DNA from: Caldilineaceae bacterium
Lineage (GTDB): Bacteria > Chloroflexota > Anaerolineae > Caldilineales > Caldilineaceae
Direction of reading: 5' to 3'
Length of the DNA: 64,000 nt
Assembly: GCA_022827195.1 (NCBI GenBank)
Contig: JAJDTL010000019.1
Coordinates: forward strand, 186,001 to 250,000
Positions 3,974 to 41,023 of this stretch are shown here, piece after piece. The position numbers and the translations under genes were made by a program. How positions within the stretch are numbered: the first letter of the stretch is position 1; each line of letters starts with the position of its first letter. Under the pieces are notes generated by a model. The model had not been told where the DNA came from and searched no databases. It worked only from the letters and a program-made list of their open reading frames with translations.

Positions 3974-5647
3974 TTACTTCTGCGTTAGCGTCGGGTTAGC
4001 TCTGCGTTTGCGCGCCAGCGCCCACAACTGACGCGTCTCCGCACCGCCGAGAAGGAAGCTGGCAAGCACATAGATAACCACGCCCAGCGCAGCCCCTGTG
4101 AACGCCGCAAACCACGCCGCGGGAATCCCGAAGATTGCGCCACTCTCCGGCAGAATCGTAAGCCAGAACAGGACCCCGCCCGCCATCACTGCGGCCGCCA
4201 AAGTCGAACGCCCGCCGCTCGTCAGCAGTTCACCCACGGGCAGGCCTGGCGTCACTTCTCCATCCGTGCCCTCTCCGCTGTCCTTGCGCACCTTACGCCC
4301 TAACAGTAGGAGGAGCAGCAGCATCTCTAGCCCGGTCGCGACGCTGTTGGCTAGCGCCAGCCCGCCGTAGCTCAGGCCGCCGATCAGCGCTAGGCTCAAC
4401 GCGATGTTCAGCACCATCGTCGCCACGCCGACGACCACCGGCGTCGCGGTGTCGTGCAGCGCGTAAAAGACCCTAACCACGATCTCGACCACGGCGTGGG
4501 CCACCAGCCCGAGCGCATAGAAGCGCAGCGCGTAGGCGACCGCCTGCGTGCTGTCGGCGTCAAAGCGGCCGCGCTGGAAGAGAAACTGGATGAGCGGCTC
4601 GTCGAGGATGAAGAGCAGGAACGCCGCCGGAATGGAGAGGAAAAGGACCAGGCGCAGCAGGCTGGTAAGCGTCTGCAGCAGCTGGGCGCGGCTGCCGGCA
4701 GCAACCTGGGCGGAAAAGGTGGGAAATGCTACGGTGGCGATGGCCTGGGCGAAGATGCCCTGCGGCAGCAGCATCAGCAGCCAGGCATAGTTGAGCGAGC
4801 TCAGGCTGCCGTCCGGCAGGCCGCTTGCCAGAACTGTGTTGATCAGAAAATTTATCTGGACAAAGAGCAGCCCCAGCGCGCGCGGCGCCATCAGCCGCGC
4901 CACCTCCCGCACCTGCGCCTCCTGCCAGTGGAAGCTGAAGCGGTAGTGGACGCCCTGGCGCAGGAGGGCAGGCAGCTGCACAAGCAGGTGGAGCAGGGCG
5001 CCAGCCGCGACACCGATGACGAGACCGTGGATGCCCACGTGTGGGGCGAGCAGCCACGCGCCGGCGATGATAGCGCAGTTGTAGAGCGCAGGCGCCACAG
5101 CCGGCATCAGAAAGTGCTGCACAGCGTTGAGCGCACCCATAATCAGCCCGCTGGCGCCGAAAACGACCGTGCTCGCCAGCATCCAGCGCATCAGCGACGC
5201 TGTCAACCGCTGCTGTTCGGCGGAGAAGCCCGGCGCGATCACCCGCGCGGTCAGCGGTTCGGCAAACAGCATCGCCAGCCCGCACAGAACGACGAGACAC
5301 AGCGTCAATAGATTCAGAATGCGGCTGAACAGCAGCCAGGCCTCACGGCTGCTGCCCTCCGTCCACGCGGCGGCAAAGGCGGGGATGAAGGCGCTGCCCA
5401 GCGCGCCGCCCGCCACGAGCTGAAAGAGCAGGTCAGGGATGCGGAACGCGGCCAGGTAGGCGTCCAACTCCGCACTGGTGCCGAAGCGGGCGCCGATGAT
5501 GATCTCCCGCAACAGACCGGTGCCCCGGCTCAGAATGAACAGCAGCATCACCAGCGTCGCCGCGCCGGCAATCCCTCTGCTGTCCAGCGCCCGTACGCCT
5601 TCTCCACCACCCGGGACCTGCCTGTCACGGATGTCCGGTTTCGTCAT
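3974..5647 (-). CDS. murJ: lipid II flippase MurJ
   Basis: The 557-residue polytopic membrane protein belongs to the MurJ/MviN branch of the MOP exporters, which flip lipid II across the inner membrane for peptidoglycan synthesis. Family features include the N-terminal LLREIIIGARFGTSAELDAY segment, then FRIPDLLFQLVAGGALGSAF and FIPAFAAAW. About 13-14 membrane spans are visible. I prefer ATG 5647, preceded by CAGGAG at 7 bases, over a start 69 bases further upstream that lacks a ribosome site. It stands alone on its strand, divergent from the nuclease-fold gene at 5793. Confidence 0.93.
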   Translation of the reverse strand: MTKPDIRDRQVPGGGEGVRALDSRGIAGAATLVMLLFILSRGTGLLREIIIGARFGTSAELDAYLAAFRIPDLLFQLVAGGALGSAFIPAFAAAWTEGSSREAWLLFSRILNLLTLCLVVLCGLAMLFAEPLTARVIAPGFSAEQQRLTASLMRWMLASTVVFGASGLIMGALNAVQHFLMPAVAPALYNCAIIAGAWLLAPHVGIHGLVIGVAAGALLHLLVQLPALLRQGVHYRFSFHWQEAQVREVARLMAPRALGLLFVQINFLINTVLASGLPDGSLSSLNYAWLLMLLPQGIFAQAIATVAFPTFSAQVAAGSRAQLLQTLTSLLRLVLFLSIPAAFLLFILDEPLIQFLFQRGRFDADSTQAVAYALRFYALGLVAHAVVEIVVRVFYALHDTATPVVVGVATMVLNIALSLALIGGLSYGGLALANSVATGLEMLLLLLLLGRKVRKDSGEGTDGEVTPGLPVGELLTSGGRSTLAAAVMAGGVLFWLTILPESGAIFGIPAAWFAAFTGAALGVVIYVLASFLLGGAETRQLWALARKRRANPTLTQK

Positions 5648-5792
5648 AGCGCTCCTGCCGCGATTGACCGTTTCCGCGCCCGGCGACTTTTGCCTTGCGG
5701 CAACGGTTCTGTACAATGTTCCAGCGATTTTCCTGCTGAGTCAATCAAGGAAAGGGTAATTTGCGCCGACTTTGCGCACAAGCAGAAATTCG

Positions 5793-6551
5793 ATGTCATC
5801 CTATCAATTTGTAAACGCATGGCGCGAGATTTTCGCCCGCGTATTCGATGACCCCCACCCGCAGTCCAACGTCAGTCCCGAATGGCTGATCAACCCTGCG
5901 ACGCGCCGCCGCCTCAAACTGGACTACCTCTTCCCCTCCGTCAATATCGCGGTGCGCTTCTCCGGCCTGACCGGAACGGGACGTCGCCGGCGCAGCGATG
6001 TGGAGCTACTTGAGGAGGAGCAGCGCGACCGGACTCGCGACGAACTTTGCCGCCGCAACGGCGTTCAGCTGGCCGTGATCGACCCATTCGACGAGCCCGT
6101 CAAGCAGATGGACCGCTTTCTGCGCGTACTGAGCCGCGCCAGCCGCCTGACCGCGCTCGATTCCCGCGCCGAACAGGAGAAGAGCGCGTCGATGGATACC
6201 CTCGCCGCGGCGCTGCAACGTGCCAACCGGCTGCGCATCTCTCTCTCCAAGGCCCCGGAACAGACGGTTGGCACGCTGGCGGAGGCCTGGCGCGACCGCG
6301 AAGCCAACATCGCCACCTCGTTGCAGCAGGCAGCCTCAACGCAACCGCCGCAGCCGACCCGCTCGCAGCTACGTACTCTCGATCAACTTGCCTGCGGACA
6401 GCGCATCGCCCACTCACATTTCGGCGCCGGCGTTATCACCGAAATCAGCGGCGCGGGCGGGGATAAGCGCGTCAAAATCCTCTTCGACGCCGACCAGGAA
6501 CGCACCTTTCTCGCCTCCCTCCTGGCCGATAAGATCGACCCGATTTCCTGA
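5793..6551 (+). CDS. nuclease-fold-like N-terminus with UvrD-type C-terminal Tudor-like domain
   Basis: The 252-residue protein has two recognisable parts. Residues about 25-110 resemble the small PD-(D/E)XK fold of Vsr/DUF559 proteins: LKLDYLFPSVNIAVRFSG gives a strand with Asp, then a second strand where the usual catalytic Glu-x-Asp is VRFSG, then RDRTRDELCRRNGVQLAVID. The active site therefore looks degenerate. Residues about 200-250 (GQRIAHSHFGAGVITEISG ... VKILFDADQERTF) match the Tudor-like RNA-polymerase-binding tail found at the end of UvrD/PcrA helicases. A charged helical linker joins them. ATG 5793 is preferred over TTG 5772. It may be a nucleic-acid-binding accessory factor; no enzyme activity is asserted. 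Confidence 0.55.
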   Translation: MSSYQFVNAWREIFARVFDDPHPQSNVSPEWLINPATRRRLKLDYLFPSVNIAVRFSGLTGTGRRRRSDVELLEEEQRDRTRDELCRRNGVQLAVIDPFDEPVKQMDRFLRVLSRASRLTALDSRAEQEKSASMDTLAAALQRANRLRISLSKAPEQTVGTLAEAWRDREANIATSLQQAASTQPPQPTRSQLRTLDQLACGQRIAHSHFGAGVITEISGAGGDKRVKILFDADQERTFLASLLADKIDPIS

Positions 6552-6561
6552 ACAGTGCAAA

Positions 6562-6590
6562 AACACCCTTAGCGCAAGCGCAAGGGTGTT
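6562..6590 (-). terminator. rho-independent terminator of the fmdB-like gene
   Basis: A perfect 9-base inverted repeat (AACACCCTT at 6562-6570 and AAGGGTGTT at 6582-6590) with an 11-base loop lies between two convergent genes. Read on the minus strand the stem is followed by a run of five T, as an intrinsic terminator needs; on the plus strand there is no T-run. Confidence 0.75.
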
Positions 6591-6641: not shown

Positions 6642-7025
6642 CTATCCTTCCTCTTTGGCCGCGCTCCTGGTCCCGCTCGGCGAACCGCTCTTGGCCTCCG
6701 CTTTGGTTTCGCTTTTGGTCTCGCTTTTGGTCTCGCTCTTCGATTCGTTCTCGGTTGCCTCTTCCGCTGATTCTTCCGCCGACTTCTCCGCCGCTGCGCC
6801 GTTGCTGTCCGCCTTTTGCGCCGCAGCCTTCTTCTTTTCGTCCTCCTTCTTGCTGTCGGTGATATACCATCCACTTCCCTTGAAATGAATAGCCGGCTTG
6901 CTCAGAAGCCGCATGACCTCCACCGAGCCGCAGGTCGGACAAGCGGGCAAAACAGTGCTGGAAAATGAAACGATGCGCTCGAATTGATTCCCGCACTCTT
7001 CACAGGCAAGTTCATAAATAGGCAT
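6642..7025 (-). CDS. FmdB-family zinc ribbon protein with long charged tail
   Basis: The 127-residue product begins with the canonical FmdB/CxxC_CXXC_SSSS ribbon (MPIYELACEECG, then CPTCGS), residues 1-45, which is a putative regulatory zinc ribbon. The following segment reads LSKPAIHFKGSGWYITDSKK, also typical of the family. From residue 65 to the end the sequence is low-complexity Lys/Glu/Ala/Ser, including three SETK units from a 12-base tandem repeat. ATG 7025 fits the family start and has GGAGAG upstream; GTG 7034 is possible. The function of the family is poorly known. Confidence 0.85.
   Translation of the reverse strand: MPIYELACEECGNQFERIVSFSSTVLPACPTCGSVEVMRLLSKPAIHFKGSGWYITDSKKEDEKKKAAAQKADSNGAAAEKSAEESAEEATENESKSETKSETKSETKAEAKSGSPSGTRSAAKEEG
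6703..6738 (-). repeat. three 12-base tandem repeats inside the FmdB-like gene
   Basis: Units at 6703-6714, 6715-6726 and 6727-6738 differ at one base or two and encode Ser-Glu-Thr-Lys copies in the charged tail. Such a coding repeat can change length by slippage in whole codons. Confidence 0.8.
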
Positions 7026-7237
7026 CGAACACACTCTCTCCAGTCGTGACCATCTTTGCCAAATCTGCCTACATAACTATACTATCCGAAGCCCGCTCAC
7101 GTTCAATTGAATCGTGTTTTGCACGCCAAAATGCGCACCAACCAAGTATACCCTTTTCCAAAGACGTTGTCGAATGTGAATCGAATTACACCCACTGCAT
7201 CCAGTCAACGATACGGGCCATTTGACCAACGCTGCCG

Positions 7238-8262: not shown

Positions 8263-10533
8263 GTGGTGCGCTATTCACAAGCCGGTCAACTTGCCAGCGA
8301 TCTGTTTGAGTCGGCCCGCAACGAACGCATCGAAGCCAACGCGCCGCTAGCCGCGCGCATGAGGCCGCGCACACTCGATGAGTTCATCGGCCAAGAAGCA
8401 ATTGTAGGGCCGGGACGACTCCTGCGCCGCGCGATTCAGGCGGACCAGTTGAGTAGCCTGATATTCTATGGTCCGCCCGGCACGGGCAAGACAACGCTTG
8501 CCCAGGTCATCGCCAACACGACGGCGGCGCATTTCAGCGCGCTCAACGCCGTTCTTGCCGGCGTCAAAGAGATTCGTGCAACGGTGACCGACGCCCAGGA
8601 ACGCTGGGCGTTGTACGATCAGGGGACCATCCTCTTCGTTGACGAGGTGCATCGCTTCAACAAGGCGCAGCAGGACGCGCTGCTGCCATGGGTAGAGAAC
8701 GGGACGGTTACCTTCATCGGCGCCACCACCGAAAATCCCTACTTTGAAGTCAACAAGGCGCTCGTCAGCCGCAGCCGAATCTTCCAGTTGAAGAGCCTGA
8801 CCGAACAGCATCTGCGCCTCATCATGCAGGCCGCGCTGAATACGCCCGGTCGCGGCTACGGCGACCGGCGCGTTCTGATCGAAGAAGAGGCGGCCGCTCA
8901 TCTCGTTTCCATCGCCAATGGGGACGCCCGCGCCGTGCTCAACGCGCTCGAGCTGGCGGTCGAAACGACAGACCCGGACCCGTCAGGCGAGGTGCGCATC
9001 AACCTCGCCATCGCCGAGGAGTCGATCCAGCGCCGCGCGGTGCTGTACGACAAGGAGGGGGACTATCACTTCGACACGATCAGCGCCTTCATCAAGAGCC
9101 TGCGCGGCAGCGACCCGGATGCGGCCCTTTACTGGCTGGCGAAGATGATCTACGCCGGCGAAGACCCCCGTTTCATCCTTCGCCGCATGCTGATCCTGGC
9201 GAGCGAGGACGTTGGCATGGCCGATCCCCGCGCCGTTCAGGTGGTCAACGCCTGTGCGCAGGCTTTTGACCGGGTCGGCCTGCCGGAGGGCAACTTCCCC
9301 CTGGCGCAGGCCGCTCTCTACCTGGCGACGGCGGAGAAGTCCAACTCGGTCATGGCCTTCTTTGATGCGCTCGACGCCGTCGGCAATGAACCCGATTCCG
9401 ACGTGCCCAGCCATCTGCGCGATGCCAACCGCGACAGCGAGGGCTTCGGGCACGGCGCCGGCTATCTCTATCCCCACGCCTACCGCGATCACTGGGTGGC
9501 GCAGCAGTATCTTCCCGCCGCGCTGCAGGGCAAGGTCTTCTACGAGCCGACCGGCCAGGGCTATGAAGCGGCTATCGCCGCCGCCGTCACGCGCCGCCGC
9601 GAGGCGCAGCTGGCGGCCATGTTGGAGGGCTCCGGCGCGCCGCCGGAAATATTGACATATGATGCGTCAGGGGGCGGGTCTGTCCGCGAGCGCTGGCTGC
9701 AGCGTACAGTGGCGCAGTCCGGTGAAGCAGCGGCCGCGCTGCGGGATCGCATTCTAGCCGGCGGCCCGCTTGAACGGCATAGCGTTGTGCTCGATCTGAA
9801 CGCCGGCAGCGGGCTGCTGACCTGGGAGGCGCAGCGCCGCTCGCCCGAAGGCGGCGTTTACGCCCTGGCGTTCAACGAGGACGACCGCCAGGCGCTGCAG
9901 GAGCAGACGCAAAATATGGAGGAGCCGGCGCGGCCGCTTCTGTTGCAGGGACGGATTGGAGAACTGGCCCAGTTGCTCGACGCTGATGCAGTGCGCTTTG
10001 ATGCCATCGTCGGGCGCAACGCTCTGATCAACTCAAGCGAAAAGGAAGCCGCGCTCAGGCAGTTGGCGGAACGGCTGGCGCCGCAAGGGTGGCTCTCGCT
10101 GGCGGAAACAGTCCCCAAACATACGCAGCGAATCTACGCCCTCGGAGACCGCTCCACGCTGCGGCCGGAGCTGGCTGAGAGGCTCATCGCGGCGGAAGAG
10201 GCGATCTACGCCGATAGCGCGGACGCACTGGTCAACTGGGACGAGGATACAATGGAGGCTGCCCTGTTTGCCGCCTTTCCCGCCCAGGCGCAGTCCGGCC
10301 GCGTCTCGATCGAGCGGATCGATGCCGACACCGACGTTCTGATCAGCGAAGGAATGGTCCGGCGCTGGTTCGGCCCTGCGCTGGGTGACCGCAGGTCCTA
10401 TGCCGAGCGGCTGGCTGAAGGGATGGGCCCTGAAGAGGTCGAGCAGATCGAGGGCTGGGTCAGAGGGCAGCTGTTGAACCGGACCGTACCCTGGCGCCGG
10501 CGTACGGTGTTGCTGCGCGTGGCGGGGGAGTAG
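8263..10533 (+). CDS. rarA: RarA/MgsA AAA+ ATPase fused to a methyltransferase-like domain
   Basis: The 756-residue protein starts as a normal replication-associated recombination protein A. Walker [10 protein letters not shown] is near residue 70, Walker [13 protein letters not shown] near 124 and sensor GATTENP near 160. The helical clamp-loader-like C-terminal part runs to about 430 ([19 protein letters not shown]). RarA acts at stalled forks. Ordinary family members stop near 440. Here about 310 more residues follow with a Rossmann methyltransferase look: motif [13 protein letters not shown], motif [12 protein letters not shown], and [10 protein letters not shown] in the acidic/NPP position. 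The start is GTG 8263 (GTG 8266 is also possible). The frame is uninterrupted across the junction. Confidence 0.85.
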
Positions 10534-35723: not shown

Positions 35724-38700
35724 TTACGAACTGGGCTCGAACACCAACTCCGGCACTACGACTTCCCAAGTATCGCACTTGAGACCGCTCTGGTACTGCG
35801 GCTCTGAATATTCTCGATTCCAGGTAGCGATGGCCAAGATGCTGGCAGAAGCGCATCGCGTTCCCGCCGGGGGTTCGAAACTGCCGGCTAGCTGTCCGAC
35901 GACCGTGCCGTTGCGGTCCAGTAGTTCCCACCGACTCGCTCCGGCCTGCACTTGTAGTGGATCGCCCGGGGAAAGCGCGGCGATGGCGCTGTGCAGGGGA
36001 TGGTTGGAATGCCTGTACCCCGCGTAGCTCAGAAAGACGTCGCGCAGGCTGAGCTGCCTATACTGCCGGCTGAGTTCCGGCGGCGCCGCCGGGAGTGTGA
36101 CAGGCGGCCGGCGGCGCAGCACAGAGGGGCTATTCCGCAAGGCTTCCTGGAATGGGTGACCGCCAGGTGAGCCCGCCAGGGTGAGGGTCAGCCGCGCGCG
36201 GCTCATTGCCACGTAGTACAGCCGGCGCGGGGCATCCGCATCCTCGCCGCGGCCGACGCGATCCCACCTCCCGTCCAGCACAACCACGTGGTCGAACTCC
36301 AGGCCCTTCGCGCGGTGGGCGGTCAGGAGCAGCAAACCGCGCTGACGGCGGCGTAGGTCACGCCCCCACTCGGCCAGCCATTCGATGAACCGGTCTGCCG
36401 CTGTCTCCGCGCCTCCGGTCTCCAACTCGTACGCGGCTATCGCTTCCTGCAACAGTTCAGTCCAAGGAGTTGGGGACAGTCTGTCCGCCCGGCCCTTCAG
36501 ATCCTCACTGTTCACCAAGCGGGAGTCTCGTTCGCGCAGCCATTTCACGAGCGCCTGCGTCTCGCGCAGATGCCAGACGGTTGAGGACTCTTCGTTTGCC
36601 ATCTGCACCGGAATCCCTTCAAGTTCGCAAAGGCTGCGCACCGGATCCAGGTAGCGCCATGCGCGGGCCACCACCGCGCAGACAGACCAGTCCCAGGCTG
36701 GAGAGAGATCGGACAGTCGCTTCAGCTCGGCGATAACCGCCTGCGCCTGCGTGATGGGCGTGTCGCCGACCGGCAGTATCTGAACTCGACCTTGGGCGAC
36801 CGGGTCTACTTCAGTCCACACGCCACCGGGCGGGTCCTTCCTGCGCGCCTGATCAATCTGGATTGGCTGCTCTCTCTTCATCCGTTGCCGCGCTGGCTTG
36901 ATCACCCTATTGGCGGCCTCGATAATATGGCCGGTGGAACGGAAGTTGTCGGTCAGGAAGAATGACCTTGCGCTGTAGTCTTCTTCGAAGCGGCGGATAA
37001 ACTTGACCGACGCGCCGCTGAAGGCATAGATGTTCTGATCATCGTCGCCCACCGCGAAAAGGCTCAGCCTATCGTCTTCTTCAGCAAGAGTTCGGCCGGA
37101 CAGCGCGGAGATCAGTCCGTATTCATCCGGGCCAATGTCCTGGTACTCGTCCACCAGTATCCAGCGGAAGCCTGCCAGCAGGCGCGTCCGCATTTCGTCC
37201 GCCTCATCGGGGGGCAGTCCTTCCCCGCGTAGCAGTGAGGTAGCCTGGCGAAGAATCGTCTTGAACTCTTCCTCATCAAGCCGGTTCGCCCGCCCCGAAA
37301 AGCTGGCCCCCGTCAAGAGCATTGCGAGCGCGTGGCAGGTCAGCACGATCACTCCGCGAGCATCATCGCCGATCAGATCCGCCAGGCGGCGGCGGATTTC
37401 GACAGCGGCGTGCCGGTTGTAGGCGAGGGCCAGGATGCTGCGCGGGTTCTCACGCCTGACGCGTACCAGATAAGCGATACGATGCACCAATACCCGCGTC
37501 TTGCCCGAGCCGGGGCCTGCGAGCACCAGCACGTTCGTCTTTTCCCGGTCATCTACCACGATGTCGCGCTGATTGCGATTTCTCAGGCTTCTGACGACGG
37601 TGTCCCATGACTCAGGCGTGGTTTGCCGCGAGATTTCTCTGTCCCGTTCCGGTAGCCATCGCTGCAGGAACTCCTCCTTGGGGAGGCTGAAGTAGTCCAG
37701 TGACAGGCGCACGGCATCGGAAAAGGATTCCAACCCCTGCTGGGCATATTCCATCATTACGTGTATCTGTAGCACCTGTTCATCATAATAGAACCTGAGG
37801 GGCTGGAAATCAGCATCGGCGAAGCGGCGCCTCTCTTTACTCAGTCGAATGGTCATAGCCGGGCGAAAGACCGCCAAACCCTTGTTCAGCCGAATGACCT
37901 CCTGTTCGTGCAGCCAGAGCAGGGCACGATCCCTAAGTTTTTCGTGGTGTGTGACCCTGCCCTGTATGATGATGTCGGACTTGAGCGACGACAGCAGGTT
38001 GCCCAGCGTCGTCTCGGCAAGCAAGTCCGTGCCTCTGCTACCCCGCGGTAGGCTCGCGAGCAGATGATCTAGCAATCGTTTGGCGGCATCGCGGCGCAAC
38101 GCCGCAGTTTTTTCCAAGTCGCTCCACTCGCGCTGCAACGTCACATGGAGGGTATCTCGATCTTGCCCCCGTATCCCCAGGCTTCCCCCACGTCCACCCT
38201 CTCCTCGCCCGTCGGCGGCGATGCTGCGGACAATACGCCTCACGCGTTCCGGCAAAGCGTAGGCATGACCGTCATCCTTAAGCTTTTGGGTAGCAAGGCG
38301 GAGATGTAGGGGGTGGGTATCGCCCTTGCTCATATCGGGGGCCATCTCTTGCATAATGGCAATGAGCGTCTGCTCCAGTCCGGCCGCCTCTTGAAAGCGC
38401 CGCTGTGAGGAGTTTTTCACCCCTGTGTGGACGAAGGCGGTTAGCACTGTGTCGTTGCTGGCGACGCCCCATTTCTCCAGGTCATCCAGCGCTTTCCGCA
38501 CTCTCTCCGGGGACAGGCCTGTTACGGCCATCAGATCGTCGGTTGTGATGCCTTCATCCGCGTCTGATTCGATTAGTGTCTCCGCGATGGTTATGAGTTG
38601 ACGGCGGTAGGCATGTCCGATGGAGGCCCTTTCGAGCTTGGCGCGCGCTTCCTCTTTTGAGTTCACTCTCAGGGAGGAAGGAAACACCTTCACGCTGTTT

Positions 38701-40856
38701 TCGTCCCGGGTCAGAAGCACAGCCTCCTCCAGCCAGGCAACTGCGGTTCGCACGCGCGTGTCGTCGGTGGTGGAATCGCGCTCGAAATCCCCTTCCTCAT
38801 CCTCTCTCAGAATTTCACCGGCAGTAGCTATAACGTCGTCTTCTCTGCGTTTCTTGCGGTCCAGATTCCACAGCGCCTTCAGGACGCCGTTGATCTCACG
38901 CCGCGTGAGCCGCGAACGGGCTGACATGCCGAACTGTCGCTCCACATCGTCCTGTGTGTAGAGCAAAACGCAGCGGGCTTTCTCCCGGTCGCGGCCGGCC
39001 CTGCCCGCCTCCTGTAGATAGTTCTCAAGGGAGCCGGGAATGTAAGCATGGATTACGAGCCGGACATCCTCCTTGTCAATGCCCATACCGAAAGCGTTGG
39101 TGGCGGCGATGACCCGCAGTTCGCCTCCGATAAAGCTCTCCTGAACGTTTTTCTTGGTTTCAGGCGGCCTGCCTGCATGGTAGTAGTCCGCCTTCATGCC
39201 TTTTTCCTGCAGAAACTCTGCCAGTTCTTCGGTCTGCCGCCTCGTCGTGCAATAGACGATTGCGCCATCCTTCTTATGTGTCGGCAGATCGGCCATCAGG
39301 ATCTCGTAGACGTGAGCATGTTTTTCCGCGTTGCTGGTCTTGACGACGATGAATTCCAGGTTCGTCCGCTGGGCGCCGCCGTCGAAGACTTTCAGTGTGA
39401 TGCCCAGCTCCTCCTGGAAGTAATCCACGATTTCGGCCTTCACGTCGGGTTTGGCGGTCGCGGTCAGGCATAACAGTTGCGGTACCGGTTCATCTCCCGC
39501 GTTTTCACGGATGAAGCGTCCCACATAGCGGTAATCGGGTCGGAAGTCGTGTCCCCACTTCGACAGACAGTGGGCCTCGTCCAACACCCAGGCGCCGATC
39601 TCCCGTTGATCCAGCACGCGGCGTATCGAGCCACTGCGAAGCTGTTCCGGCGCAATAAGCAGGATGCTGGCATCCCCCATCCGCACCCGCTCCAACGCAT
39701 CCGCGCGTTCAGGCATCGACAAAAGACCGTTGACAGTGACGCAGGAGCCGATGCCTTTCTTCTCCAACCCGGCTACCTGGTCGGCCATGAGGGCCACCAG
39801 AGGAGAGATCACCACCGTCAACGCGCCGGTCTTGTCGTAGCGCGACAGGGCCGGAAGCTGATAGCAGACCGATTTGCCGGTACCCGTTGGCAGGATTGCC
39901 AGGAGATGCTCTCCCGCCATCGCCGCCTCGACGACGGACTGCTGCATAGGACACCCCTCCTCGTCCTCCGGCTCCGGTCGGAATTCGTCAAATCCGAACC
40001 AGCGAGTGAGTTCCTTTCGGGCGTTGTGGCGTTCCCGGCACCAGTCGCAGTTGGGATAACCACAGGCGGTGTCGCGCAGTTTGCGCACCAGCCGCCCCGC
40101 CTCGGGAAACTGATGCCGTACCCAGGGGGGCATCACCGAATTGCCCCCAGACACCGACAGCCACGCCAACGCATAGGCCATTGGCCAGCCGCGTTGGGCT
40201 GTATTGGCAATAATCTCATGGGCGTGAGTCCGACAGGCCGTACCATCCAGGTATCCATATATCGCAGCATGCGCTTCGTCGTCCGACGGCCTGCTCGCCT
40301 GCCGCAGAAAAGCGAAAACCCGGTCGAACCCGGCGCCATCCTCGACCGTGGTCAGCCAGTGCCAGGCTGTCAACAGGTCGGGCGGCGCATCTTTCAGCGC
40401 CTTCCGCTGGTTGTCGAACACCTCCAGCGCAAGTCTGGCATCCAATTCCGGGTCGTTGATACGACCGCGTATGAGTTGTCCATCCTGATAATGCTTGACC
40501 AGGTGGTGATAGGGGTTGCGGGGAAAGGCCAGCGGATTGAGCCAGAGTGTATCCACCGCCGGCAGCCGCAAGAGCCGCAAACGGGGATTCGCGGCTTGTA
40601 GATGGGGGATATCAAAATCGATCAGATTGTGGCCCAGCAGAAAGTCCGCGTCACCGGCAAGTTCGTCCAGTTCGGCCAATGCCGAAATCAAGCCGCCGGC
40701 GCCGTTATCGGGATAGACCAGGGCCCGACCGGTGTCCAGACGCACCGCAGCGAACTTGAAGATGCGGTCGTTCCGGCCGACTTCAAGATCCAGCGAGAGA
40801 CAACGAAACGAGAGACGGTTGAATTGGTCAAGCGGGCCTGTGATGCTGTTTGTCAT
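35724..40856 (-). CDS. triple fusion: DEDD exonuclease, RecQ helicase, UvrD-like helicase
   Basis: The 1,710-residue protein joins three DNA enzymes. Residues 15-160 are a DnaQ-like 3'-5' exonuclease (D23/E25 in SLDLEVG, then LLGHNLIDFDIPHL, and ELDARLAL). A Cys cluster (CGYPNCDWCRERH, about 265-277) follows. Residues 300-640 form a RecQ SF2 helicase with Walker A ILPTGTGKSVCYQL and DEAH at 426-429. A winged-helix-like middle runs to about 1,080. Residues 1,095-1,620 form an SF1 UvrD-type helicase (VLAGPGSGKTRVLVHR, ILVDEYQDIGPDEY, GDDDQNIYAFSGAS, TAHRAKGLEFDHVV, YYVAMSRARLTLTL). ATG 40856 is used; a TTG at 40907 is also open. All core motifs look intact. Confidence 0.9.
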   Translation of the reverse strand: MTNSITGPLDQFNRLSFRCLSLDLEVGRNDRIFKFAAVRLDTGRALVYPDNGAGGLISALAELDELAGDADFLLGHNLIDFDIPHLQAANPRLRLLRLPAVDTLWLNPLAFPRNPYHHLVKHYQDGQLIRGRINDPELDARLALEVFDNQRKALKDAPPDLLTAWHWLTTVEDGAGFDRVFAFLRQASRPSDDEAHAAIYGYLDGTACRTHAHEIIANTAQRGWPMAYALAWLSVSGGNSVMPPWVRHQFPEAGRLVRKLRDTACGYPNCDWCRERHNARKELTRWFGFDEFRPEPEDEEGCPMQQSVVEAAMAGEHLLAILPTGTGKSVCYQLPALSRYDKTGALTVVISPLVALMADQVAGLEKKGIGSCVTVNGLLSMPERADALERVRMGDASILLIAPEQLRSGSIRRVLDQREIGAWVLDEAHCLSKWGHDFRPDYRYVGRFIRENAGDEPVPQLLCLTATAKPDVKAEIVDYFQEELGITLKVFDGGAQRTNLEFIVVKTSNAEKHAHVYEILMADLPTHKKDGAIVYCTTRRQTEELAEFLQEKGMKADYYHAGRPPETKKNVQESFIGGELRVIAATNAFGMGIDKEDVRLVIHAYIPGSLENYLQEAGRAGRDREKARCVLLYTQDDVERQFGMSARSRLTRREINGVLKALWNLDRKKRREDDVIATAGEILREDEEGDFERDSTTDDTRVRTAVAWLEEAVLLTRDENSVKVFPSSLRVNSKEEARAKLERASIGHAYRRQLITIAETLIESDADEGITTDDLMAVTGLSPERVRKALDDLEKWGVASNDTVLTAFVHTGVKNSSQRRFQEAAGLEQTLIAIMQEMAPDMSKGDTHPLHLRLATQKLKDDGHAYALPERVRRIVRSIAADGRGEGGRGGSLGIRGQDRDTLHVTLQREWSDLEKTAALRRDAAKRLLDHLLASLPRGSRGTDLLAETTLGNLLSSLKSDIIIQGRVTHHEKLRDRALLWLHEQEVIRLNKGLAVFRPAMTIRLSKERRRFADADFQPLRFYYDEQVLQIHVMMEYAQQGLESFSDAVRLSLDYFSLPKEEFLQRWLPERDREISRQTTPESWDTVVRSLRNRNQRDIVVDDREKTNVLVLAGPGSGKTRVLVHRIAYLVRVRRENPRSILALAYNRHAAVEIRRRLADLIGDDARGVIVLTCHALAMLLTGASFSGRANRLDEEEFKTILRQATSLLRGEGLPPDEADEMRTRLLAGFRWILVDEYQDIGPDEYGLISALSGRTLAEEDDRLSLFAVGDDDQNIYAFSGASVKFIRRFEEDYSARSFFLTDNFRSTGHIIEAANRVIKPARQRMKREQPIQIDQARRKDPPGGVWTEVDPVAQGRVQILPVGDTPITQAQAVIAELKRLSDLSPAWDWSVCAVVARAWRYLDPVRSLCELEGIPVQMANEESSTVWHLRETQALVKWLRERDSRLVNSEDLKGRADRLSPTPWTELLQEAIAAYELETGGAETAADRFIEWLAEWGRDLRRRQRGLLLLTAHRAKGLEFDHVVVLDGRWDRVGRGEDADAPRRLYYVAMSRARLTLTLAGSPGGHPFQEALRNSPSVLRRRPPVTLPAAPPELSRQYRQLSLRDVFLSYAGYRHSNHPLHSAIAALSPGDPLQVQAGASRWELLDRNGTVVGQLAGSFEPPAGTRCASASILAIATWNREYSEPQYQSGLKCDTWEVVVPELVFEPSS

Positions 40857-41023
40857 TGTCCCGTAGGGCAGCAAGGATTCGCCGCAGGGGGATGATAGCG
40901 TCGGCAACTCTAATGTGAACCTTTTGAGGGGTCAAGTAAGTCGCAGGGTTGCGCCTTTGCAAAGTTGGCGTCTCGCCCGTATTTGAGATTTCCGAATACC
41001 CCTACTCCTATCAGGAAAATCCA

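Follow-up and report, generated by a model that had tools for sequence, protein, structure and literature searches.

A gene in the 64,000-nucleotide stretch of Caldilineaceae DNA analysed here (the window; C10:186001-250000 of a 5.2 Mb genome in 54 contigs) encodes a 252-aa protein in which a tail of the UvrD/PcrA Tudor type follows a predicted nuclease-like domain that has lost its catalytic pair (Table 1). Our best reading, which we hold tentatively and with a little less than even confidence, is that the protein is a non-catalytic nucleic-acid-binding adaptor that docks on UvrB and/or RNA polymerase (RNAP) through a UvrD hook. In this picture a helical stretch followed by a variable linker would connect a dead Vsr-like nucleic-acid-binding domain to the Tudor hook. 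The hook would dock on the hairpin used by UvrD, on UvrB and possibly on the RNA polymerase beta subunit too, and the dead nuclease domain would hold on to DNA or RNA in the vicinity, leaving it uncut. Such a clamp on DNA or RNA would be placed at sites of excision repair or stalled transcription, where the protein would share the docking site with UvrD or compete for it.

We prefer this reading because the tail is homologous to that of UvrD, the hook contacts are kept, the motif in UvrB is exact and the E-x-D pair is lost within a nuclease fold. It also draws on a parallel in FASTKD4, invariant basic residues, purifying selection, a second UvrD-type tail and the modular nature of the tail. 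The mild charge of the N-terminal domain, the K-to-R and L-to-F changes in the tail, the lack of a constant repair neighbour and the weak Foldseek support speak against it. Sequence and prediction support the two-domain anatomy, the loss of the catalytic pair, the retention of the hook positions, selection, coexistence with UvrD in most family genomes and the UvrB motif; from these we infer every binding event and the role in repair.

Table 1. Features of the 252-aa gene and its surroundings (window positions; A1, alignment of 51 family rows)
Feature	Position	Strand	Basis or remark
Whole gene: degenerate Vsr-like domain (predicted), helical middle, linker, UvrD-type Tudor tail	5793..6551	+	ATG at 5793, 252 codons, stop 6549-6551; ORF analysis
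N-terminal domain, residues 1-127, predicted PD-(D/E)XK/Vsr-like fold	5793..6173	+	AlphaFold2, VIA-align
D44 (LKLD), retained first catalytic Asp position	5922..5924	+	51/51 rows; aligned with DUF559 D
R55-F56-S57 in place of E-x-D of DUF559-type nucleases	5955..5963	+	hhalign register
Middle part, residues 128-198, AExWRDRE motif and variable linker	6174..6386	+	A1 conservation
UvrD/PcrA-type Tudor tail, residues 199-252 (Pfam stretch 202-242)	6387..6548	+	profile matches
H207, equivalent of PcrA H681 (RNAP contact)	6411..6413	+	H in 51/51
R237 and F239, equivalents of PcrA K712 and L714	6501..6509	+	A1 counts
Hairpin 3' of stop, between convergent genes	6562..6590	+	-18 kcal/mol, z -2.39
MurJ-like gene, divergent, upstream	3974-5716	-	by eye
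FmdB-like zinc-ribbon gene, convergent, downstream	6642-7034	-	by eye

The UvrD-type tail and its candidate partners

The C-terminus is a tail of the UvrD/PcrA type, as the original prediction had claimed. Scanned as a protein, the window sequence matches PF21196 (PcrA_UvrD_tudor) with E 6.4e-5 and 23.2 bits, against a cut-off of 23.9. In the genome search the same profile scores 26.2 bits at the 252-aa gene, over the cut-off, and all 51 rows of alignment A1 match it at E<=1 (best 5.9e-9). A1 was built from 55 family sequences, with the near-duplicates L016, L019, L023 and L024 left out; L012 and L064 lie on the same contig, leaving 50 distinct rows. As its rows were collected through their similarity to the window protein, its invariant columns describe that family and not distant relatives. 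The family profile in turn finds the solved UvrD tails 6yi2 (9.3e-8), 7egs (1.1e-7) and 4c2t (2.6e-7). The sequence profile thereby rules out a lack of resemblance between residues 200-250 and the UvrD tail, which had been named as the refuting outcome; the full-length AlphaFold2 model is poor (pLDDT 46), renders the tail badly and was kept out of the fold search.

Mutating H681, W684, K712 or L714 of PcrA (G. stearothermophilus numbering) severely reduces RNAP binding (PMC5397179). We mapped these positions by hand from UvrD alignments and the PcrA sequence, in numbering that agrees with PMC5397179. In A1, the 252-aa family keeps the four contacts, in kind only: position 210 is F in 47, Y in three and L in one of the 51 rows, position 237 is R in 49 and K in two, and position 239 is F in 48 and L in three. 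The third contact is Lys in 10/10 UvrD tails from genomes that also carry the 252-aa gene, which makes Lys-to-Arg at 237 a constant difference from the UvrD tails examined. The constant K-to-R change and the L-to-F change could mean that this tail has a different ligand. The tail of E. coli UvrD has weak affinity for DNA, and that of PcrA has none (PMC7585439).

The tail is not part of a helicase here. The SF1 motor profile PF00580 has seven matches in the genome, none of them at the 252-aa gene. Two PF21196 matches occur in 26 of the 37 same-family genomes, one in nine and none in two. Where there are two, the second lies in a frame of >700 codons in 22 genomes; in the other four the frame is shorter and perhaps truncated. 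The 252-aa protein thus appears to coexist with UvrD in most genomes of the family.

The PcrA tail binds a hairpin of the form [VIL]-D-x-x-T-G-E-[VIL]-[VILT] in both RpoB and UvrB, so that RNAP and UvrB are competitors for PcrA (PMC8318588). The genome's own UvrB carries the strict motif, IDTLTGEIL, at frame position 245. Its own RpoB lacks the strict helicase-interaction motif; the nearest stretches are VDALTGRIL, with Glu replaced by Arg, and TDTDSDEIL. Both hairpins sit in a lineage-specific insert after GFIETPYRRV (locus L192), and in the window's genus this insert mostly holds VDALTGR-type and degenerate DPxSGE-type hairpins. UvrB was read at 30 loci, the best of those from 60 matching genomes; 25/30 carry the strict motif and 30/30 its Glu. 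Among RpoB sequences (50 of 58 genomes with a match) it is strict in 5/50, each time in the insert after GFIETPY, with the limit that RpoB loci other than the genome's own mostly lack part of the C-terminal end, where a motif would be missed.

This evidence bears on a narrower alternative: that the tail binds RNA polymerase beta specifically, and that the protein is a transcription factor recruiting or blocking UvrD at the stalled polymerase. All four PcrA positions with severe loss of RNAP binding are kept in kind, the RpoB insert offers motif-like hairpins, and the CarD/Mfd RID profile (PF02559) is weakly matched by 8/51 rows (best 0.0015), against 51/51 for the UvrD tail; the window protein itself has no PF02559 match at E<=10. 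Set against this are the genome's own RpoB, with no strict motif, and the Glu position of the RpoB hairpin, which varies among relatives whereas that of UvrB is constant in the 30 loci. We regard an RNAP-specific tail as possible, if unlikely. Since the motif is exact in the genome's own UvrB and its strict form is absent from RpoB, UvrB has at least as good a claim to be the partner as RNAP. The polymerase-binding tail of the original prediction accordingly stands as far as the kept contact positions go, but less firmly as to the partner: binding of RNAP by the tail is possible, and UvrB looks the cleaner candidate. Docking on UvrB need not matter in itself, because the C-terminal extension of UvrD binds UvrB and yet is reported to be dispensable for excision repair (PMC2997466). 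UvrB may also keep the motif for other reasons.

The N-terminal nuclease-like domain

The two-domain anatomy proposed from the letters alone holds up at this end too. Fold prediction of both parts had been suggested as a check, and it was confident for residues 1-127 but poor for the tail. Predicted alone by AlphaFold2 from an input of three sequences, residues 1-127 reach a pLDDT of 85.3 and a pTM of 0.78, with two of five models confident. The predicted elements are H3-17, E24-27, E43-47, E52-56, H69-88, E92-96 and H102-126. Helix, strands, helix, strand, helix is the order of the PD-(D/E)XK fold. VIA-align places the model closest to I-Bth0305I (3r3p; Z 8.9 over 95 residues) and Vsr (1cw0; Z 7.9 over 105 residues), followed at Z 6.3-7.2 by mitoribosomal chains, Bax1, TnsA, Can2, AbaSI and Hjc; a best Z of 7-8 is often reached even by models that resemble no known structure clearly. 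The Foldseek result by itself is weak, with AbaSI best at E 0.11, Vsr at E 1.1 and nothing under 0.1. Given this weakness and the commonplace Z values, we consider the PD-(D/E)XK/Vsr-like fold of residues 1-127 probable rather than proven.

At the level of sequence families, the window protein matches no Pfam nuclease family at E<=10, and neither DUF559 (PF04480) nor DUF2726 (PF10881) has a match in the genome at E<=0.001. DUF2726 is matched by 2/51 rows of A1 (best 0.14). Plain membership of DUF559 or DUF2726 was therefore rejected as below threshold. Profile alignment by hhalign against 16 DUF559 sequences nonetheless runs in register over 85 columns (E 0.027, probability 1.8%), placing LKLD on the nuclease D and VRFxG on VELDG, followed by the next helix and strand. 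Of 150 column shuffles one scored higher, and the eight best shuffles covered at most 48 columns each. With a second set of DUF559 sequences, five more distant ones, the alignment failed (10 columns, E 0.42). Against DUF2726 the alignment covers 38 columns only, the last helix and strand (E 0.011; 1/150 shuffles higher).

The register shows what became of the catalytic residues. The acidic pair had been described as replaced, which is half of the picture: R55 occupies its place in 51/51 rows, F56 is invariant and residue 57 is acidic in only 2/51, but the conservation of D44 means that one acidic residue survives. No His of the domain is conserved, the best column having H in 24/51 rows. With R55 in every row and no conserved His, neither the usual set (D, E-x-K/D) nor that of Vsr (D with His) is complete; D44 alone is kept. 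All rows have lost the set in the same manner; this speaks for a non-catalytic role under selection, and from the sequences we infer that the domain has no nuclease activity.

The domain could still be a nuclease, delivered by the tail, with a rearranged site formed by D44 with E12 or E71, Arg standing where the second acidic residue would be. The PD-(D/E)XK fold has known cases in which the active site has moved. E12 is as constant as D44 (51/51) and E71 nearly so (49/51). The replaced E-x-D, the invariant R55 and the absence of a conserved His weigh against such an enzyme, and we judge it improbable.

The basic residues R39, K42, R55, R78 and R82 are invariant. The net charge of the domain is only mildly positive (mean +1.6, range -5 to +8, own +4) and so does not demand nucleic-acid binding. 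This modest charge would suit a protein-protein module, for instance a dimeriser or a binder of UvrD or UvrA, with the protein occupying docking sites and regulating the access of UvrD; the tail by itself would be enough for competition. Such a module fits poorly with the invariant arginines that surround the former active site, and with selection: in four pairs, dN/dS is 0.04-0.15 for the N-terminal domain and 0.13-0.31 for the tail, and the domain is the most constrained part in 3/4 pairs, not in the fourth. A pure protein-protein role is, in our estimate, doubtful, and the non-catalytic nucleic-acid-binding adaptor is the reading we retain.

Between the two domains lie a conserved AExWRDRE motif and a variable linker, with E164 in 46/51, W166 in 50/51, D168 in 50/51 and R169 in 51/51 rows. 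Helices in this middle part are seen only in the low-confidence full-length model.

Genomic setting, distribution and selection

The relatives start at or near the place of the window's ATG. The gene stands alone between its divergent MurJ-like and convergent FmdB-like neighbours. The hairpin behind its stop codon was equalled by 2/200 shuffles and has no T run; it is a possible terminator. No cluster of neighbouring genes is present in more than 19 of the 41 regions that were compared: the upstream MurJ-like cluster reaches 19/41, all within the family, the flanking genes of the window are common mainly to family members, and no repair gene is a constant neighbour. An operon partner was rejected, as no neighbour is constant across these regions. 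A mobile or defence gene was rejected as well, since plasmid and phage records gave no match to the 252-aa family and PADLOC gave none for the window protein. PADLOC matches in relatives are weak; the model TmtA is weakly matched by 26/51 family rows (best 1.1e-4) and not by the window protein, and these matches perhaps arise through the UvrD-type tail.

Three further proteins of the window deserve mention. The FmdB-like protein has SETKSETK-type repeats at its C-terminus. In a 1727-aa protein at 35724-40907 (-), a DEAD/Helicase_C (SF2) part is fused with an SF1 helicase part of the UvrD type. At 8263-10533 (+) lies what is, by eye, a RarA/MgsA-like AAA ATPase whose long C-terminal extension resembles a methyltransferase.

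A near-full-length copy is present in 39/61 nearest genomes, namely in 34/37 of the same family (own included) and 5/24 of other families; one more genome has a 36-residue fragment only. The three same-family genomes without a full-length copy are G010, G031 and G036, two of them of one genus. The G010 assembly, of the same genus, is 95% complete, and its match lies only in the tail of an 848-codon frame. Among 199 genomes of the class, 52 have a near-full-length match, five a partial or split one, ten a match in the tail only and 132 none; nine of the ten tail-only matches lie in frames of 606-1011 codons and one in a 96-codon frame. Among 301 sampled genomes of the phylum, the whole profile is matched only in G000 and G050, both of the same class, and no other has a best E below 8.2e-11. 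Of the remaining matches, none among those listed starts before profile position 80; the start is mostly at 150-190, and most lie in frames of 700-1000 codons. These late starts and large frames indicate that the C-terminus is common to UvrD-sized proteins and the N-terminal domain is not. A 93%-identical copy lies on a contig of an uncultured Caldilineaceae bacterium. Beyond Chloroflexota, coverage consisted of a pattern scan, which detects close relatives only.

Over the four pairs, dN/dS of 0.13-0.15 indicates purifying selection. Chance resemblance or a decaying gene, which the PF21196 score just below the curated cut-off in the scan of the protein alone might suggest, is rejected on conservation in 39 of the 61 near genomes and a dN/dS of about 0.14, and is also at odds with the family profile's E of 1e-7 to UvrD tails; we regard it as scarcely credible.

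Comparison with known systems

If the adaptor reading is right, a second protein would use the docking site of UvrD in these bacteria, and access of UvrD to UvrB or RNA polymerase would be set by competition. The protein would be a natural dissection of Tudor tail function, free of the attached helicase, and a case in bacteria where a nuclease fold has become a module that no longer cuts. It would also bear on the dispute over UvrD in transcription-coupled repair (PMC8318588).

The tail itself appears on other proteins. In Mycobacterium, the Y-family polymerase DinX ends in a Tudor domain of the UvrD type, for which its authors propose RNAP binding (PMC6511836). DinX and the window protein are thus both non-helicase proteins with such a tail. 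They differ in that DinX is a polymerase and not a dead nuclease; the window protein has no Pfam match to Y-family polymerases at E<=10. A second nuclease-fold protein with a UvrD-type tail is encoded in L284:1025-1939 (+) (G041:C28), a 305-aa frame with a PolB-exo2/RNase_H_2-like domain (PF10108 and PF13482, 3.9e-6 and 3.6e-5; tail 1.7e-9). It lies directly downstream of a 719-codon frame with a UvrD-type tail, which is probably UvrD. The occurrence of the tail on DinX and on this exonuclease-like protein of G041 suggests that it is modular.

The original prediction spoke of a new kind of factor. The precedent of DinX takes away the novelty of the tail on a non-helicase repair protein; what appears new is its pairing with a dead Vsr-like fold, undescribed in the titles and abstracts searched, in a collection without most of the subscription journals. 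A bolder hypothesis, which we consider rather unlikely, is that the tail is a transferable recruitment tag for repair, carried by UvrD, DinX, the L284 protein and, in most family genomes, by a non-cutting Vsr-like reader. This reader would dock on UvrB or RNA polymerase, mark lesions or R-loops and compete with UvrD. If true, it would be a factor in transcription and excision repair that has no enzyme activity.

Comparing the window protein with the C-terminal Tudor domain of PcrA/UvrD (PF21196; 5DMA, 6yi2, 7egs) reveals likeness over about 41-51 residues and the same kinds of contact: His, aromatic, basic and hydrophobic. Whereas PcrA and UvrD carry a helicase motor, the 252-aa protein does not, and it has Arg instead of Lys and Phe at the L714 position. 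With the catalytic domains of Vsr and I-Bth0305I it shares the predicted fold and the first Asp; the other catalytic residues are gone, and identity in the structural alignments is 7-10%. DUF559 aligns in register along D..E-x-D-G and the next helix and strand, with R-F-x in place of E-x-D, and the 252-aa family falls below the Pfam thresholds of both DUF559 and DUF2726.

A published parallel to the N-terminal domain comes from the RAP/FASTK proteins. FASTKD4 has a Vsr/I-Bth0305I-like cavity in which the Asp is kept, and its authors conclude that it binds RNA directly without cleavage, judging nuclease activity absent (PMC11879112). The likeness to the window protein lies in the predicted Vsr-like fold with an Asp kept. 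The RAP profile is neither among the three Pfam families of the window protein nor among the 25 of 49 families listed for A1. RAP/FASTK proteins also differ in being mitochondrial, in their other accessory domains and in having no UvrD tail.
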